This document shows positions 33,909-41,233 of a stretch of DNA of 64,000 bases, in pieces. The DNA is taken from positions 62,001 to 126,000 of the forward strand of contig NZ_JAMXEX010000006.1 of the NCBI RefSeq assembly GCF_025370775.1, read 5' to 3'. This DNA comes from Ancylothrix sp. D3o. Its GTDB lineage: Bacteria; Cyanobacteriota; Cyanobacteriia; Cyanobacteriales; Oscillatoriaceae. The translations under genes and the position numbers were made by a program. The stretch's first letter is position 1. Every line of letters starts with the position of its first letter. Under the pieces are notes generated by a model. The model was given only the letters and a program-made list of their open reading frames with translations, made no database searches and was not told where the DNA came from.

Positions 33909-35174
33909 CTAACTATTGGGCCGGTGAATAATCGTTTCTACAACCCGCCGTTTTGCCTTCGGTTCAATTCCTACCAAGCGGATATAATCGCTACTGTGGT
34001 CTTTTAAACAGTGTTGAACTGCCGTAAGTGCTGACTCTTGTTCCTCTGGCGAAAGAGAAGCACAACTTGTCCAAGAATTTGTCCGAAACCGGCGCTCATC
34101 TACATATTCTATACCCAACCGATAACCCCGGCTTAAAATCTGCTGCACCTGTTCCATCACTTCTGCACTCACGCCGTTTTTTCCATTCCCGCTAGTATTG
34201 GAATTAACAACCGGCTGCTGTGCAATTGGCTGCTGTACAGGGATAGTTTGTGTGGGTGCCGGTGCGTTAACATTTTGGTTTTGATTCGGGTTTCTTAACA
34301 CCTGATTATACTCTCTTACCAGGCCCATATCCTGAATGCGTTTTTGCTCTTGCACCAGCAAATTACCAAATTCAATTAAACGAGATAAGCTAAAATCTGG
34401 CTTCGGAAAATTCGGCGGCCCATCAGAACTATTTACTACTCGTGATGAAACTTTTTCAAAGCCGACTTTATAAAGAAAATCGCGGATTTGTTCATCATAA
34501 ATTCGCGCTCGCACAGCCCCAAAAAAATCAATTGCTTGGGTGGGGAAAGTCTCGACCATTTGCTCAACTTGACTGCGAGAAATTCCGTCGGGTTCAAAAA
34601 TTCCCGCTACAATTCCTACTTTATCTTCGCGGTTTGGTTCCCAATAAAATTTTTCCATCCGTCCATCACGGATTAAGGGTTCATAAAGTGTCGAAAAATC
34701 ATTGCCGGTGACAATAATCGGCACGCGATGTAAAGGTGTAGAATCATAACTACCCGGTAGTTGTACGTTGGTAGGATTGTCGGCAATATTCATCAATGTA
34801 CCGTTTACCAACTGAGTATTAACAGTATATTGAGTAGTTGAATCAAATCTACCGGCACCGGCATCCAAATCATTAATCATCAACACCACCATTTTGCCGC
34901 GAACTTTGATCAGTTCGGCAGCTTCACGGTAGCGCAAACGAATCAGACGCGCCGGATCGCCGGCATCAGGACTTTCTAATTCACCGGCAGTCATGTGGAC
35001 AACTTCAATGCCCATTTTTTCGTAAATTAATTCGCATTGAAAAGATTTACCCTCTCCTTTGCGTCCGTGAATACCCAAAATGAGAGGAACTCTAACCCCC
35101 GGCAGATCGAGGAAGTTTTTGGTAATGTGGATTGCTAGTTTATCGAGAAAACGGGGGGAAATGTAATATGCCAT
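33909..35174 (-). CDS. rca: Rubisco activase with C-terminal small-subunit-like domain
   Basis: This 421-residue AAA+ protein has Walker A GRKGEGKS (37-44), the Rca-type sensor/arginine-finger core (LVNGTLMNIADNPTNVQLPG, IVTGNDFSTLYEPLIRDGRM), and helical C-domain. A Gln/Asn/Pro-rich linker (about 300-330) follows. Residues 334-421 resemble a Rubisco small subunit (GYRLGIEYVDERRFRTNSW), the SSUL domain. Rca removes inhibitory sugar phosphates from Rubisco. The SSUL tail recruits it to Rubisco in the carboxysome. It lies about 5.7 kb downstream of rbcS on the same strand, with an accessory islet in between. Confidence 0.95.
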   Translation of the reverse strand: MAYYISPRFLDKLAIHITKNFLDLPGVRVPLILGIHGRKGEGKSFQCELIYEKMGIEVVHMTAGELESPDAGDPARLIRLRYREAAELIKVRGKMVVLMINDLDAGAGRFDSTTQYTVNTQLVNGTLMNIADNPTNVQLPGSYDSTPLHRVPIIVTGNDFSTLYEPLIRDGRMEKFYWEPNREDKVGIVAGIFEPDGISRSQVEQMVETFPTQAIDFFGAVRARIYDEQIRDFLYKVGFEKVSSRVVNSSDGPPNFPKPDFSLSRLIEFGNLLVQEQKRIQDMGLVREYNQVLRNPNQNQNVNAPAPTQTIPVQQPIAQQPVVNSNTSGNGKNGVSAEVMEQVQQILSRGYRLGIEYVDERRFRTNSWTSCASLSPEEQESALTAVQHCLKDHSSDYIRLVGIEPKAKRRVVETIIHRPNS

Positions 35175-35439
35175 TGTTGTGCTAGTTTAGGAGCGCTTGT
35201 TTTACCCTTATAGTTAAAATTTTATGACAAAAGGGTTGGTTTTGAATATTTTTTTAAACATCGTTGTTTTTCTGATAGTTGAAGCCGTCATTATGAGGTC
35301 TATTAGCTAATTTATATATTTTTCAAGTTTGTTTAAGGATAACTAATTTTGGTAGGGATTATCAGCCTCAATTATTAACATTAATCAAAGCGAATTTTAG
35401 AGTTTTAAGCAGGGGTTTTTAGAGATGCGAAACTGGTGT

Positions 35440-35859
35440 TTATTTTGGATTTATGCCACAATTTCCTCTAGCCCATCCCCACTCTTCAACACCCACAGAA
35501 ATTTGTGCCCCAGGCTTAATATTGCCTTTGGAAAGATCCACCAGTGTTACTGCCGTCGCCGCCTGGAAATTTCCCCGATAGATCGGTTGACCTTTGCTGT
35601 TTTCTCTGTCGTATTTTAACGTAGAAACTTGCGGCGGTTGACCGGCCCGTTTCCAGCTTATTTGCGTAAACCGGCCATTCACATATTGCGCCGTATAAAC
35701 CCAGCCATTTCTCATAGTGCCGGTGCAAGTAAAAGTTTGTGCTGCCTGAACCGGCCCCACCGGCAACAACGCTTGTAAACTCAGTAATATAGTTACATTT
35801 AAACCCAGGACACCGGCTTTTTTGCAAATTGTTGTCTTCAAAATATTTAACATATACAA
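35440..35859 (-). CDS. secreted protein of unknown function
   Basis: This 139-residue protein has an N-terminal signal peptide (basic TTICKK, hydrophobic VTILLSLQALLPV, cleavage near VQAAQ). A small domain with two cysteines (FTCTGTM and RGNCGIN, likely one disulphide) and many beta strands follows. No family is recognised. The Met at residue 3 is an alternative start. It follows the transposase remnant by about 20 bases and has a spacer of about 265 bases before rca. Confidence 0.65.
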   Translation of the reverse strand: MYMLNILKTTICKKAGVLGLNVTILLSLQALLPVGPVQAAQTFTCTGTMRNGWVYTAQYVNGRFTQISWKRAGQPPQVSTLKYDRENSKGQPIYRGNFQAATAVTLVDLSKGNIKPGAQISVGVEEWGWARGNCGINPK

Positions 35860-35879
35860 AATTGCTGTTTTGTTGTTTC

Positions 35880-36151
35880 AAACAAGCTAGTGGCGCAGGC
35901 GTCCCGCCTGCGATTCCCGCTGCGCCAGAGGCAATCGAATCAACCCCCCTTTCATTATATTTCTTGATGATCCTACGGGCATAATCATAATTTAAACCGA
36001 CCGAAGCAGCACTCTCTTTAACTGTCCATCCTAAAGCCACTTTCCATAGTAGATGCCAACGTCTAGCTTCGACCATATCTTTAGCTTTTCGGTATCGATT
36101 TTTTAGTTCTGCCTCATTCAGGTGGGGGACTAGCTCAAGTTTTCTTGGCAT
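35880..36151 (-). pseudogene. N-terminal remnant of an IS630-like transposase
   Basis: The first 75 residues (MPRKLELVPHLNEAELKNRY, then WTVKESAASVGLNYDYARR) are a helix-turn-helix head of the type found in IS630 transposases and related resolvase-like ORFs. The frame then runs into a GC-rich hairpin repeat (35895-35911) and continues into unrelated sequence. The DDE catalytic part is missing. No terminal inverted repeats were recognised, so this is a truncated leftover rather than a live element. Confidence 0.65.
35895..35911. repeat. GC-rich hairpin GCAGGCG-tcc-CGCCTGC
   Basis: Seven-bp perfect arms with a 3-base loop sit at the breakpoint of the transposase remnant. It is similar in kind to 3229-3245 and 48971-48985. 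Confidence 0.8.
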
Positions 36152-36209
36152 GGCTGCTATGGAGCGTATTTTTGTTTGATTATAACATACTCTTGCCAGC
36201 CGGATTTAG

Positions 36210-36371
36210 TATGACTATAAAAGTTTAGTTCAGTTGAAAAATGTTGCGGATTTGTTTACACATAAACAATGGACAACTAAGGAAGCTATTTATATGGCTA
36301 AAACTAAATTCCGTAAGTCTTATTTACCAGGGAAACCAGAATCTGTTAATAAATTTGGCAATGTCTTATAA
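36210..36371 (+). other. possible relic ORF
   Basis: A 53-codon open frame without a good start (its only ATG with a usable context is at 36294) reads TKEAIYMAKTKFRKSYLPGK and stops at TAA 36369-36371. The composition looks protein-like and may be a leftover of a mobile or accessory gene. No family is recognised. Confidence 0.25.
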
Positions 36372-36399
36372 AGAGTTAGGCTTGTTCCTTGACCAAAAA

Positions 36400-37437
36400 T
36401 TATAATAGCTCCGTCAAGTGCATCTCACCATTTACAAATTCAAATTGCACAACTCGCCTTGTCTTATTATTGCCTGTAAATTGTACGAAACTATTGTAAA
36501 TTCTGCTATCATCTCCATTATCAATAAAAACTGTGAATGCTACTTTTTCTTTTTTCTCTCGATCCTTATAAAAATTCACTAAGACGGTGTGTTTTCCTTT
36601 GGGTATTTGTTCCCAAGTTACGTTTTCTTGTGGATTACTTACAGAGTTTTCATTGGCATTTGCGTCAATATCTAATTTTCCAATTATTCCTTGATACTCA
36701 ACTGTCTTATTTTGATAATCTATTCTACCTCCTTCGGTACTAATTTGTAAATCCAAGTCATCAGTTGTATTCCAAGAAAGATTGACACGAAATTTTCCAG
36801 CGTTACCTTGTAATTTTTGCTGGCTTAAACTTACAAGCCTATCTAATTCTGTTTTTATCTTATCTTTTTGATTTTGCGGTGCGGTGATGTATGCTCGATG
36901 CTTTGCTCCTACTAATTCGTCAATTAATTTATTCCTTCTTTCTTCCGCTGTTTCTGAAACTTTCAATGTTTTTGTCTCAGTCTGATTTAGTTGGGGAATG
37001 TTTTTGATAAATTGTATAACTTCTTGTAAATCCAGATAAATAAAATATAGGATAGGCGCATCTCCTAGCCTCAATTCTCCGTATTTGACACCCCTTTCTT
37101 CTTTAAAGTCTGTTAAGTCTTGGTCAAAAGAAACAACATATCTGGGCTTGAAATTTATCGTCCCATCATCATTTTTACTTATTACATTCATCACTTCTTT
37201 GTAAACATAGGATTTTACATAGCTTTCTTGGGTATCCTTTTGTGAAAACTCAATTTCAGTTTTAATTTTATCAGGATCTAACTCTTCATAATAATCAATT
37301 CCTCCTTTATCTATAAAAAAATCCTTTAAAATTGGATAAATAAACTCTTCATTCACTATTTGCCGAACTTGTGGATCTAGTGAAACAACAGGATTAAAAC
37401 GACTGATAACGCTAAGGGCCGAATCATGCTTTATCAT
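36400..37437 (-). CDS. YfaP/DUF2135-like beta-sandwich protein, third gene of the McrB-like cassette
   Basis: This 345-residue protein has two parts. Residues 1-160 contain LDPQVRQIVNEEF, YVVSFDQDLTDF and APILYFIYLDLQEVIQF, with no family that I recognise. After a helical hinge (EERRNKLIDELVGAKHRAY), residues about 215-345 form a beta-rich domain. It shows RVNLSWNTTDDLDLQIS, GKLDIDANAN, NPQENVTWEQIPKGKHTVLV, the layout of YfaP/DUF2135 domains. ATGA overlap with the upstream nuclease gene means translational coupling. It is a candidate accessory or sensor subunit of the nuclease pair. No catalytic residues are evident. Confidence 0.7.
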   Translation of the reverse strand: MIKHDSALSVISRFNPVVSLDPQVRQIVNEEFIYPILKDFFIDKGGIDYYEELDPDKIKTEIEFSQKDTQESYVKSYVYKEVMNVISKNDDGTINFKPRYVVSFDQDLTDFKEERGVKYGELRLGDAPILYFIYLDLQEVIQFIKNIPQLNQTETKTLKVSETAEERRNKLIDELVGAKHRAYITAPQNQKDKIKTELDRLVSLSQQKLQGNAGKFRVNLSWNTTDDLDLQISTEGGRIDYQNKTVEYQGIIGKLDIDANANENSVSNPQENVTWEQIPKGKHTVLVNFYKDREKKEKVAFTVFIDNGDDSRIYNSFVQFTGNNKTRRVVQFEFVNGEMHLTELL

Positions 37438-39050
37438 ACTATTACTTGCTTAATATAAAAATCTTGAATTGTTTTGAAATTAATTTTTACCAGTTGAATT
37501 TTGCTTTGATTGAAGTGAAGATTACTTACTGTGTGTAACTCTTCCAACACTAACGGGTCATTGGAGAAATAAGGTATCCAAAACTCACTTTCAGTTTTTT
37601 CCTTCCAATTCTGCTGTACTGTCCATTCATAGATTAACTGTTTCTGTATATCATCTTTTACTTTATTTTCGCCTTTTTTATCAATATAGTTTGGTGAGTA
37701 CCTTTCATAATCCAAAATCCTCATATACTTGTAGTCAACAATTTTGACAGAGGAGGATGAAGCCTGAAAAGCTTGCATTAAAAGATTTTTAAATAATTCT
37801 AAATTTTCATTAGACATACATCTAGGTCGGATAGAACCTATAGTTGAATTATGTTCTTCAGGTCGTGAAAGTTTTAGATACTGAGCATAGATTTTTGGAT
37901 GGTTTATTTTAAAACTATAAAGGTTTGGTAGTAACTTAACTCTAAAAACCGATTGTCTACCTGGTAAATCTATTAGCTCAGTTTTATAAACATTTTCTAT
38001 TTGGTATTTTTCTTTCGCCTTCAATACTAAATCAGGCCGCAAAGAACGTACTCTTGGCAAATTATTCAATTTTAATTCAAATGGATTAATAGGATATTCA
38101 TTGATTAATTGTTTAAGCCTTCCTTCAACATCCGCAAAGATTGCTCTTTCTTTATATTCAGGTGTATTGAGTACATAAGTTTGGCACATATCCTCCCATA
38201 TATCATAGAAACTGCTAAAACCCCAGTAAATACCTTTATTATCTTCTTGTCGCTGTCCGTATAAAAACGCCTCTACTGCTTCAAAAAAATGCCAATAATC
38301 ATCATCTTTATAGGCTGTTTTAGTGTCAATATCTTCTAGGGTTTCCCTCAAAATATCTAAAGTTTCGGCAAATGTATCTTCGCCAAATAAACTACTGTCA
38401 GGTTGCAAATAGTTTTCTTTAAACTCCTCGGCAAGCTCGGCAGCCCTATCGGAAATATGTTCTAGTTCTTCCAACTCTGTTTTGATTTCGGTGTAAATAA
38501 AACAAAAAAGTTGTAAAATTGGCGGACTTTCTTTGACTAAGATATTTTTAGCAATATTCATTTCGTCAATATAAATCACATCCTTATCAAGATAGATAGC
38601 TTGGTGCATATACCGATGAATCTTTGAGTAGTCAATTTCGGGGCTTCTCCTTTGTCTTTTTTCTAAAGACGAAATTCGCAATTCATCGTAACCCTCAAGT
38701 ATTTTATCTAAAGAATTGAGTTTGCCATAAAAAACTACCTGTTCATTATTTTCATTGATAAAACTAAATCCGTTTTCATTTTCAATAATTCCGTCTCGAT
38801 TAATGGTTATGTCTTTGCTCTCCATATAATTCTGTTTTCTTTGCAGATACGTTTTGAAGGTTCGGTACATCTTGAAGAAGAAACCTTTGACTAGGTTAAA
38901 ATCTGTATGATCAAAATCATCAAATCCTAACGGCAGCCAAAACTCTAAGCGATCAGTTTGCTGATTTCTCTGAAGACCGACGAACGAATAGCTACTGTAG
39001 CCACGTTGTTGATCGGTTTTAATGATATCTATATTACTGAGGTCAAACAT
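37434..39050 (-). CDS. McrC-like PD-(D/E)XK nuclease subunit
   Basis: This 538-residue protein has a helical middle with FYDIWEDMCQTYVLN (about 281-295), the helix seen before the nuclease core in McrC/LlaJI/DUF2357 proteins. The core motifs are LRPDLVL (337-343), VKIVDYKY (435-442, the D-x-K strand) and QKQLIYEW (469-476). Together they make a PD-(D/E)XK site with a long insertion between the PD and DYK elements. It would cut DNA when driven by the McrB-like motor. Its start ATG is directly adjacent to the McrB stop, and its end overlaps the next start by 4 bases. Confidence 0.82.
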   Translation of the reverse strand: MFDLSNIDIIKTDQQRGYSSYSFVGLQRNQQTDRLEFWLPLGFDDFDHTDFNLVKGFFFKMYRTFKTYLQRKQNYMESKDITINRDGIIENENGFSFINENNEQVVFYGKLNSLDKILEGYDELRISSLEKRQRRSPEIDYSKIHRYMHQAIYLDKDVIYIDEMNIAKNILVKESPPILQLFCFIYTEIKTELEELEHISDRAAELAEEFKENYLQPDSSLFGEDTFAETLDILRETLEDIDTKTAYKDDDYWHFFEAVEAFLYGQRQEDNKGIYWGFSSFYDIWEDMCQTYVLNTPEYKERAIFADVEGRLKQLINEYPINPFELKLNNLPRVRSLRPDLVLKAKEKYQIENVYKTELIDLPGRQSVFRVKLLPNLYSFKINHPKIYAQYLKLSRPEEHNSTIGSIRPRCMSNENLELFKNLLMQAFQASSSSVKIVDYKYMRILDYERYSPNYIDKKGENKVKDDIQKQLIYEWTVQQNWKEKTESEFWIPYFSNDPLVLEELHTVSNLHFNQSKIQLVKINFKTIQDFYIKQVIV

Positions 39051-40256
39051 TTACAGAGCCATTATTTTTTTAACAAATTTTTGAACGATATCTTTTTGGG
39101 TAAATTGTCCAAATGTAACTAAATCTCTTTCAGTCATTCCCAAAAGTTCAGTCAAAGGCTTACGATTGTTACTAAAAACAGTATCCCAGATAAAGAACAT
39201 CAATTTATTTTTGATGTGTTCTTCTGTTATAGTTTCTTCATTAATAAAAAAGTAACCAATCTGTTTGTCCTCAATTTTTCTAACTGTCTTGTAATGACTG
39301 CGGATGAATTCATTTAACTTATCAACAAAATCATTCCATGCACAAGTATCATTGTTGTAAAGTTTTACTCTTCTGCTCGATACTACGTTTCTTTGTCCAT
39401 CATCCTCAATATTTACAAACTCCCAATCCCAACGACGTTTAAAGGCACTATCCATAAAATAGATTGAGTTGTCAGAAGTATTCATGGTAGCCAAAATAGA
39501 TAAATTTGGCGGAAGTTTTATTTTGTTATCTAGCAAACTAACTTTTTCATCTTCTTCTAAGTCATCAAAAACCAATTCCAGAGCCTTATTATATTCGTCT
39601 TGCTTACACTCTTTTCCTTGAGATTTGTATTTCTTTTCTGAAGATCCACTCTCCGTTGTATAGAAGGTTGAAAAACCTGCTTCTTTTAAAAGTCCAATAG
39701 TTTCAATATCAGAAATGGTAATCGGATACTCTGACCACCCATTTTTAGCTCTATCAAGTAATTGGAATACCGTACCAAATATAGCTGCGGAATTCCCCCT
39801 ATTTAATTCATCAATTACTAATACAACATTGTTGGGGGTTGGTTTTTCAACCAAGTCATATAATCTATCTAGTTCCTTTTCTTGACTTGGGTTCAATTTA
39901 GCACCTGATGCTAATTCATCAACAGTTCTTAGCTTCAGCCTGTATTCATCTTTTACCTTGTTTTTTGCTGACTCATAATCTCGATGAGCGCTTATGATGT
40001 TTGTATAAGATATTCCAAGGGCTTTCAAAAAATGTCCTGTATAGAATCTGTATGAGACTTTCTGATTATCATCGGTAAGTGGCATTAATTTACCCATGAA
40101 ATCACCATAGGTGTATTCTGGGTGAAAGACAGTTGTAATAATATTTGACTGGTCAGTTATATTTAACTGCCCAGGAATTATTTTACTTTTAACCCTATAA
40201 CTTTTTCCGGTTCCAGGGCTTCCGAAAAGAATCTTTTGAATGGGTCTATTGGACAT
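39051..40256 (-). CDS. McrB-like AAA+ motor subunit
   Basis: This AAA+ ATPase/GTPase of the McrB group has Walker A FGSPGTGKS (residues 11-19), Walker B VVLVIDELNRGNSAA (about 144-158) and ILATMNTSDNSIYFMDSAFKRRWDW (about 254-278). In that last block the family's NxxD signature reads NTSDN. I prefer the ATG at 40256 (401 residues). The open frame to a TTG at 40385 adds 43 unstructured residues. It has no N-terminal DNA-recognition domain, unlike E. coli McrB, so target recognition must come from a partner. It is the first gene of a three-gene transcript. Confidence 0.88.
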   Translation of the reverse strand: MSNRPIQKILFGSPGTGKSYRVKSKIIPGQLNITDQSNIITTVFHPEYTYGDFMGKLMPLTDDNQKVSYRFYTGHFLKALGISYTNIISAHRDYESAKNKVKDEYRLKLRTVDELASGAKLNPSQEKELDRLYDLVEKPTPNNVVLVIDELNRGNSAAIFGTVFQLLDRAKNGWSEYPITISDIETIGLLKEAGFSTFYTTESGSSEKKYKSQGKECKQDEYNKALELVFDDLEEDEKVSLLDNKIKLPPNLSILATMNTSDNSIYFMDSAFKRRWDWEFVNIEDDGQRNVVSSRRVKLYNNDTCAWNDFVDKLNEFIRSHYKTVRKIEDKQIGYFFINEETITEEHIKNKLMFFIWDTVFSNNRKPLTELLGMTERDLVTFGQFTQKDIVQKFVKKIMAL

Positions 40257-40828
40257 AAGGTTTAATCGTTTTTTGGGAAATCGATAAGGTGATCGATAAG
40301 TGAGCAAGTTAAGAAAGTTATTTGTCTGTAAGCCTGAATAAATTTGAATTTCTTCAGAATTATTGACAAGAGTGAGCCTTGTCAATGGGTGTCATTCTAA
40401 ATTGGGGTTATTCTCTAATGCTCACTACTGCCATCTTACAAGTTAAATTTAGCACATCCACATCATACAATAATATAGTGAGTTGGCAAATGCTGAGAGT
40501 AGGTTGTTTAGGTACACCGATAAAAGCCACTCGCCTCAAGCCGCAATAATCAACGAGCCAACACTCAAGAATCCCTAGAAGGGCGTATTATTCCACTTTT
40601 AGTATTAATTGAAAGTACAATCTTAACTCGTCAACCCCCGTCTTTTGAGTTCTGCAACCAGCAATGGATGTGCCTCTAAATTCGGCAGGACTTACGCAAA
40701 TTATGACAATCAGCACTACTTGTACGCGCAATCGCGCTGGTTTCCCCTGAGCCTGCCGAAGGGTGGTTGTCCCTATATTGGTCGTCTCTGCGTAAGTCCT
40801 GCAATTAAAAATCAAATTTTATCTAAAA
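40257..40828. other. 570-base gene-free stretch holding a MITE-like element
   Basis: The region upstream of the McrB-like gene has no convincing ORF. It must carry that operon's promoter (minus strand), and 40685-40802 is an inverted-repeat element. The rest, with several stops in every frame, looks like decayed sequence. Confidence 0.5.
40685..40802. mobile_element. 118-bp MITE-like element
   Basis: The ends GCAGGACTTACGCA (40685-40698) and TGCGTAAGTCCTGC (40789-40802) are perfect 14-bp inverted repeats. Inside lies GAGCCTGCCGAAGGG, a motif found in dispersed cyanobacterial repeats. No coding capacity is present. The GCAGGACTTACGCA end is one I recall from many cyanobacterial spacers. A non-autonomous element mobilised by an unlinked transposase is the simplest reading. 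Confidence 0.85.
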
Positions 40829-40853
40829 AAAAAGCCCGCACCGGCGGGCCTTA
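40829..40853 (-). terminator. intrinsic terminator of the rbc operon
   Basis: On the minus strand GCCCGC-cggt-GCGGGC forms a GC stem followed by nine Ts (plus-strand A-run 40828-40836). It sits about 45 bases after the rbcS stop. Confidence 0.9.
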
Positions 40854-40897
40854 TATTTGTAGCCCTATATTTCAAGGAGCTACAAACGGCGATTAAA

Positions 40898-41233
40898 TTA
40901 ATAACCGCGAGTATTGGGTTTGTGAACGATAAAGCTCAAAACTTGGCACTGCTTCACGTTGTCAAAAGCAACAACGCGGATATAGCAGTTGGGGTATTCA
41001 CTGCGGCACTGTTGAACTTCGTTCAAAACTTCGTTGGTGCTGCGGGCGCTAAACAAAGGCAACTTCCACATTGTCCAGTAGTAAACAGTCGGTTCAGAAT
41101 TTTCGTTGAACTCAACGGCGGGGAAATAGCCATTATCCAAAACATACTGGATTTGTTTGGCAATTTGAGCATCAGTAAGCGGGGGCAAATAGGAAAGAGT
41201 TTCGTAACGGCGCTCTTTGGGTAGGGTCTTCAT
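40898..41233 (-). CDS. rbcS: Rubisco small subunit
   Basis: This 111-residue small subunit of form I Rubisco starts [20 protein letters not shown]. It has [24 protein letters not shown] in blocks and ends VHKPNTRGY, the normal cyanobacterial length. Eight copies cap the L8 core inside the carboxysome. A strong SD (GAGGAAG) lies just before the ATG. It is last in the rbcL-rbcX-rbcS operon, 63 bases after rbcX, and followed by a good terminator. No transit peptide is present, as expected for a bacterium. Confidence 0.98.

Follow-up and report, generated by a model that had tools for sequence, protein, structure and literature searches.

A mobile, probably McrBC-type restriction cassette with exchanged segments in its predicted motor and nuclease and a dedicated third subunit

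The window (the whole stretch of DNA that was analyzed, 64,000 nucleotides) carries a mobile three-gene cassette that, judging from its sequence, is probably a McrBC-type restriction system. We lean toward a reading in which it is a mobile restriction cassette of the LlaJI/LlaI/BsuM branch, where A would be the motor, B the cutter, and C an adaptor, and where the target would be set by segments of A and B. More tentatively, it may represent methyltransferase-free restriction within the McrBC family, with specificity residing in exchangeable segments of the AAA+ core and nuclease domain, together with the dedicated adaptor C, instead of in an N-terminal reader as in characterized McrB and LlaJI. 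The genes and the two parts of C are as follows.

39051..40256, minus strand: gene A, McrB-like AAA+ protein of 401 aa without an N-terminal recognition domain (AAA_5, TgMcrB, and PADLOC matches)
37434..39050, minus strand: gene B, predicted PD-(D/E)XK nuclease of the LlaJI/YdjA type (McrC-like), 538 aa (motifs, Foldseek, and LlaJI matches)
36400..37437, minus strand: gene C, third subunit of 345 aa with a 4-nt overlap with B (ORF, recurrence in relatives)
36994..37437, minus strand: N-terminal domain of C, residues 1–148, which is what the third gene conserves (in three genomes, it is joined to the C-terminal end of B)
36400..36822, minus strand: C-terminal YfaP/DUF2135-like beta-sandwich of C, residues 206–345, optional (remote matches)

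The last base of A (39051) abuts the ATG of B (39050), and the stop of B and the start of C share 4 nt (37434–37437), an overlap that most relatives also possess. When the ORFs and motifs were re-read, the three minus-strand genes, both junctions, and the motifs of A and B proved to be as a preliminary description of this DNA had given them. The trio also recurs as a unit, as that description had anticipated: it is found in both Cyanobacteriota and Bacteroidota, on chromosomes and on plasmids, and because the order A-B-C is repeated in unrelated genomes (closer relatives share at least 60% identity per protein), it is not a chance arrangement. The N-terminal domain of C occurs in 11 of 386 cyanobacterial genomes, all 11 of which also have B. 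At every locus read, C either lies next to A and B or forms one protein with B, in three genomes (G041, G158, and G290) as an extension of the B C-terminus; C was never seen apart from A/B, and the third gene is thus indeed dedicated to its partners. The co-occurrence holds in one direction only, since 14 of the 25 genomes carrying B have no C, and C therefore marks a sub-branch, not the whole family. A search of 395 Bacteroidota genomes recovered the seed alone, so the family is rare in that group.

Gene A starts with an ATG at 40256, and its Walker A motif, FGSPGTGKS, lies already at residue 11 of 401 (nt 40200–40226); the N-terminal modified-base-binding domain of Type IV McrBC is absent. 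Further along are IDELNRGNS (residue 148, nt 39789–39815) and NTSDN (residue 259, nt 39468–39482; MNTSDNS spans 258–264), so that the AAA+ domain has the NxxD signature that is characteristic of McrB in Type IV systems. Matches to AAA_5 (1.7e-5), to TgMcrB among PDB sequences (2.7e-18), and to the PADLOC REase_II profile of the LlaJI.R1 type (3.1e-33) identify A as the McrB-like AAA+ subunit that is also found in LlaJI, LlaI, and BsuM. In the cassette, it would act as a ring motor driven by NTP, probably GTP.

Gene B is a predicted LlaJI-type nuclease. It possesses the motifs RPDLVL (residue 338, nt 38022–38039), VDYKYM (residue 438, nt 37722–37739), and KQLIYEW (residue 470, nt 37623–37643), and residues D439, K441, K470, Y474, and E475 are invariant among 26 homologues. 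Together with the TgMcrB match of A, these catalytic residues bear out the proposed pairing of a McrBC-like motor with a nuclease. The model of B matched the Bacillus subtilis YdjA-YdiS (BsuM) entry 9a5m in Foldseek (E=3.6e-9), but the TM-scores were low (0.33/0.37); plasmid-derived rows were left out of the folding input. A Pfam search with the window's own B recognized nothing, RE_LlaJI included, whereas one B homologue matched RE_LlaJI (8.3e-5). The assignment to the R2/YdjA type of PD-(D/E)XK subunit is made on the Foldseek match, on RE_LlaJI in that one homologue, and on a weak match of the B-family profile to Treponema R2; the RefSeq label of a homologue on a Nostoc plasmid is "LlaJI family restriction endonuclease." The conserved N-terminal part of B may dock on the A ring and stimulate it, with DNA being cut by the PD-(D/E)XK center.

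Three segments of A and B depart sharply from their surroundings.

37755..38018, minus strand: hypervariable segment of B, residues 345–432, an insertion that separates the PD motif from the DxK motif (mean pairwise identity 14.5% vs 66% for residues 1–300)
39828..40019, minus strand: hypervariable segment 1 of A, residues 80–143, following the helix-2-insert hairpin and preceding Walker B (mean 25.8% vs 70–80% in the flanks)
39516..39722, minus strand: hypervariable segment 2 of A, residues 179–247, flanked by the Walker B helix and by the NTSDN strand (mean 29.0%)

The helix-2 insert of A was located by alignment to TgMcrB, with Phe260/Tyr272 placed from PMC7680126. Segment 1 was considered as a candidate for the insert itself and rejected, as the alignment puts the hairpin at about residues 54–78 of A, with the segment coming after it.

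Comparison of the window with the copy in G079 reveals a mosaic. In B, nucleotide identity is 93–99% over residues 1–300 (~96%), 45–51% over residues 361–420 (about 48%), and 91% over residues 451–480; along A, it runs 84–87%, 44–53%, 77%, 46%, and 91–97%. The contrast in B is seen between two host families, and identity troughs are present in the other branches too. No donor for the window's variable segments was found beyond 38–40% identity, in G034. The segments of A lie in the AAA+ core of the motor and that of B beside the nuclease active site. Target recognition is most likely determined by the variable segments of A and B and not by C; exchanged among otherwise near-identical cassettes, these segments would carry target choice, and the swapped segments in motor and nuclease probably decide which DNA is attacked. 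Arms races commonly diversify defense proteins at the surfaces where inhibitors bind, and the pattern alone would equally fit diversification to evade phage-encoded inhibitors, with recognition elsewhere (e.g., in the N-terminal domain of C or in host partners). We regard this as unlikely, if worth keeping in mind, since near-complete replacement flanked by ~95% identity, in an AAA+ core and beside an active site, looks more like allele exchange of a recognition module. Exchanged recognition segments would bear on how McrB-like systems without an N-terminal reader domain choose their targets, a question that cassettes differing mainly in three short segments make directly testable.

The preliminary description had instead cast C as a dedicated sensor or accessory subunit, a reading in which its YfaP-like half would sense DNA or another substrate in place of the N-terminal domain that A lacks. 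One might expect as much from a motor without such a domain and with a dedicated partner, and the half does exist: it matches PHROG 1735 (4.8e-15) and, in tblastn, phage proteins, one of them annotated as DUF2135. The likeness is remote (Pfam DUF2135, E=0.13, under the curated cut-off), and the half is optional: of the 17 stand-alone C genes that the tree compares, 10 lack it, as do all three B-C fusions. Moreover, the N-terminal domain of C is not hypervariable (85% between the window copy and G079, while the variable segments show 20–40%), systems without C exist, and the swapped segments lie in A and B. A sensor role for C through its YfaP-like half is therefore improbable.

What is conserved in C is a domain of ~150 aa, and the conservation of this core is about equal to that of the scaffold. 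A fold and homology check of the 345-aa protein, as had been suggested, gave the remote matches of the YfaP-like half; the N-terminal domain has no convincing relative in Pfam, NCBIfam, PADLOC, PDB sequences, or PDB folds, and a C profile found no relative in the viral contigs searched. There was likewise no significant alignment of C with LlaI.3 or other LlaJI-family proteins, and against the collections compared C looks otherwise undescribed. The N-terminal domain could serve as an adaptor or regulatory subunit on B, and the optional tail as an extra binding or sensing module. As a third subunit, and one that a single lineage fuses to its nuclease, C would give McrBC-type complexes a defined new component.

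Linked cytosine methyltransferases are expected in the McrBC-related Type II group of LlaJI, LlaI, and BsuM, and a LlaJI-like one was found in none of the 22 trio neighborhoods, plasmid copies included. The scan covered the cassette flanks with LlaJI-type queries and simple motif patterns, and it recovered the methyltransferases of all three LlaJI-type controls. As none is linked, self-avoidance probably depends on recognizing modified or otherwise foreign DNA, in a Type IV-like manner. A conventional Type II restriction-modification system, with its protecting methyltransferase elsewhere in the genome, would agree with the nearest characterized relatives, which belong to Type II and have their own cognate methyltransferases (PMC1459862, PMC2614495), and with exchanged segments that resemble changed sequence specificity. 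We think it rather unlikely given the 3/3 against 0/22 result, and because a mobile cassette arriving without its methyltransferase would kill the new host.

That the cassette was horizontally acquired is seen in several ways. Its GC content is divergent (33% vs 42.8%); the DNA of B is ~96% identical to a copy in another host family, the rbcL of which is only 84% identical; and the cassette is absent between rbcS and rca in two genomes (G024 and G021). Plasmid copies of the trio exist, one of which adjoins an integrase and AbiEii. The role of the cassette would be anti-phage or anti-plasmid restriction. Two flanking elements lie outside the system.

40685..40801, strand not assigned: MITE-like element in the interval from the cassette to rbcS; its terminal inverted repeats are GCAGGACTTACGCA (sequence read directly)
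35516..36151, minus strand: helix-turn-helix ORF (HTH_23, 3.9e-8), which we take to resemble an IS630-type transposase fragment

Another copy of the trio, L063, adjoins a VWA/PP2C/kinase triad that is TerY-P-like, its kinase having an S1 domain. CoCoNuTs are McrBC derivatives often found with TerY-P triads (PMC11090510), and an RNA-targeting or abortive-infection effector comparable to these, and not DNA restriction, might be envisaged. This is quite improbable: the triad is at one locus only, A retains the NxxD motif, B is LlaJI/YdjA-like, and neither A nor B gave a convincing match to cold-shock or other CoCoNuT-type domains (one B homologue matched CSD2 at 0.11).

The architecture had been put forward as a candidate for an undescribed one, which does not hold: the layout of LlaI and BsuM, a short McrB without an N-terminal domain, a LlaJI/McrC-like nuclease, and a third ORF, is already published (PMC1459862; PMC2614495) and is also that of the trio. 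BsuM of B. subtilis (ydiR-ydiS-ydjA) is likewise a three-ORF restriction cassette with a short McrB-like subunit (343 aa; PMC1459862), and its deposited YdjA-YdiS model is the one matched by B, but it is a Type II system with methyltransferases (PMC2614495). LlaI of Lactococcus has the order of the trio (a 337-aa McrB-like protein, a LlaJI-family nuclease, and a third protein) and differs in its linked methyltransferase and in LlaI.3, which has an HExxH motif and a PADLOC capP match (2.4e-6) and nothing in common with the sequence of C; the third ORF is thus not a homologue of LlaI.3. The LlaI-like copy, L101, lies beside fragments annotated as adenine methylase; we presume it to be LlaI, given the 337-aa length stated in PMC1459862.

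LlaJI (pNP40) pairs a McrB-like R1 with a PD-(D/E)XK R2, as do A and B, and R2 and B share the co-linear motifs FVGI..LPxGF, YG..F..VWE, PD, DxK, and KQ. In contrast, its R1 recognizes DNA through an N-terminal domain (of the B3 type in the homologue from H. pylori; PMC7680126), two 5mC methyltransferases are linked, and there is no third restriction gene. McrBC of E. coli and T. gammatolerans also combines an NxxD-bearing AAA+ domain with a PD-(D/E)XK partner but recognizes DNA via the N-terminal domain of McrB (DUF3578 or YTH), which is missing from A. CoCoNuTs, though McrBC-derived, multi-gene, and sometimes accompanied by TerY-P, have a coiled-coil/cold-shock architecture not recognized in the trio, whose nuclease is of the LlaJI type. 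Any likeness to YfaP/DUF2135 proteins is a remote match limited to the C-terminal domain of C, where their domain forms an optional tail and not the conserved core. By homology, then, the trio is not of an unknown kind; it is a variant in the LlaJI/LlaI/BsuM branch of the McrBC superfamily.

Three genes on the minus strand, here called A (McrB-like AAA+), B (PD-(D/E)XK nuclease-like) and C (the third protein), lie between rbcS and rca, in an insertion region at 33909-41233 of the cyanobacterial window:

33909-35174, rca
36400-37437, minus strand, gene C, 345 aa
37434-39050, minus strand, gene B, 538 aa
39051-40256, minus strand, gene A, 401 aa
40898-43374, rbcL-rbcX-rbcS

A runs into B without a gap, and the junction of B with C is an ATGA overlap. 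An alternative TTG start would give an A of 444 aa; homologues favour the ATG at 40256. A MITE-like element of ~117 nt with terminal inverted repeats (GCAGGACTTACGCA) is found at 40685-40801, and on the cassette's other flank an HTH ORF (35516-36151), which overlaps another ORF, looks like the N-terminal portion of a transposase of the IS630 type.

Every motif named in the preliminary description was located at its expected place. Gene A matches the AAA+ domain of McrB from T. gammatolerans (2.7e-18) and E. coli (2.2e-8), keeps the NxxD signature, and has the PADLOC LlaJI.R1-type model as its best defence match (3.1e-33); it has no N-terminal domain, with Walker A already at residue 11. The window's B alone is not recognised by Pfam. 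RE_LlaJI, a Pfam model that also matches in B. subtilis (14 control genomes scanned), is matched by one of 19 B homologues (8.3e-5), and a Nostoc plasmid homologue is labelled 'LlaJI family restriction endonuclease' in RefSeq. Only one known fold matches the AlphaFold2 model of B (pTM 0.74) significantly: the integrative model of YdjA-YdiS from B. subtilis, with E=3.6e-9, a probability of 1.00 and TM-scores so low (0.33/0.37) that the match counts as fold-family evidence only. Residues D439, K441, K470, Y474 and E475 are invariant across 26 homologues.

Gene C consists of two parts. Residues 1-148 are kept in all its relatives and have no relatives in the libraries searched, and residues 206-345 form a beta-sandwich, remotely DUF2135/YfaP-like, with relatives among the domains of large phage proteins (BFVD matches in Acinetobacter phage ME3 and, at 6.2e-6, in Cellulophaga phage phi4:1). 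In a comparison of 17 stand-alone C genes, seven belong to the long type, counting one (L024) whose contig ends just before the domain with the linker present; the other ten lack the C-terminal domain, as do all B-C fusions.

The trio recurs as a unit, with A and B adjoining C at every C locus read, one pseudogenised copy included. It occurs in Spirulina, Planktothricoides, Geitlerinema and further cyanobacteria, in Saprospiraceae, Bernardetiaceae, Chitinophagales and Bacteroidales, and on plasmids of Hymenobacter, Nostoc and Geminocystis. The N-terminal domain of C is present in 11 of 386 cyanobacterial genomes, all of them among the 25 that carry B; 395 Bacteroidota genomes yielded the seed and no further member, which makes this a rare family of patchy distribution. 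In three genomes (G041, G158, G290), B and C form one protein, with C joined to the C-terminus of B. A tree of A sets the C-containing systems (20; 83/76, a weaker support) apart from six C-less ones, which have B without C; the C-less group (98/98) and the fusion group (100/100) are single clades, and Bacteroidota and cyanobacterial members are interleaved. Genome G158 (L059, L062, L084) holds three different B copies: one joined to C, one beside a separate C and one of the long C-less type. One cassette copy is decayed, with stops throughout (L065), and another is interrupted by foreign transposase-like ORFs within A (L061).

The cassette shows signs of mobility. Its GC content is 33%, against 42.8% for the window. 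Residues 1-300 of B share 93-99% DNA identity with those of G079, a genome of another family, whereas rbcL shares only 84%, and in two genomes (G024, G021) the rbcS-rca gap is ~0.5 kb without a cassette. Elsewhere, copies are carried by plasmids or have an integrase and AbiEii, or HerA- and ArdA-type genes, nearby. At L063 (10921-15853), the trio directly adjoins a VWA/PP2C/kinase triad, a TerY-P-like defence module whose kinase has an S1 (OB) domain. At L057 (8125-12035), the Nostoc plasmid trio precedes genes for a HerA-like (DUF87) ATPase and for a protein of 704 aa, two that may form a further defence pair.

Between the B genes of the window and G079, nucleotide identity is 93-99% over residues 1-300, only 45-51% at 361-420, and 91% again at 451-480. 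Along A it runs from 84-87% through 44-53% (91-150), 77% (Walker B) and 46% (181-210) to 91-97%. Two segments of A, 80-143 and 179-247, average 25.8% and 29.0% pairwise protein identity across ten close relatives (flanks about 70-80%), and B 345-432 averages 14.5% (66% in residues 1-300); since alignment is unreliable within these segments, the figures mean 'not recognisably alike'. The segments have the lowest or next-lowest identity among all stretches of equal length. Similar troughs occur in other branches, the first A segment not being variable in the C-less branch, and the N-terminal domain of C has no comparable trough (85%, window against G079). In the window's branch the PD and DxK motifs (338 to 437) flank the variable B segment; in the L031 branch just ~17 residues separate PD from the DxK that follows, and the variable stretch precedes PD. 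In its A segments G079 is similar to Planktothricoides G065 (63% and 76%), yet the C-terminal flank of its A has its closest counterpart in the window (92% vs 73%), which indicates recombination. In McrB and LlaJI.R1, specificity is located in N-terminal domains (PMC1459862, PMC7680126, PMC12707154); as A has no such domain, we infer that the variable segments of A and B hold it.

METHYLTRANSFERASES. Six methyltransferases from three LlaJI-type systems, each of which found itself in its own locus, had no match in 22 trio neighbourhoods. Motif patterns, a weaker test in that they missed the two LlaJI enzymes of L100, gave only one N6-like candidate (L027) in the linked neighbourhoods searched.

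LlaI, BsuMI and LlaJI are classed together as McrBC-related Type II systems (PMC2614495), and the LlaJI paper notes that the short LlaIB and BsuMIB come from three-ORF cassettes (PMC1459862). The three-gene layout, part of a candidate undescribed system in the preliminary description, was thus already published for LlaI and BsuM; the observation itself stands, and its interpretation is borne out in part. In one LlaI-like cassette (L101, 7432-8673), the restriction protein encoded third contains HExxH and is matched by the model of the CapP metallopeptidase. The third-ORF protein of LlaI, LlaI.3, shows no similarity to C. Judged from sequence, a restriction role for the trio is likely, and what is new is the missing linked methyltransferase, gene C as compared with LlaI.3, the B-C fusion and the exchanged segments.
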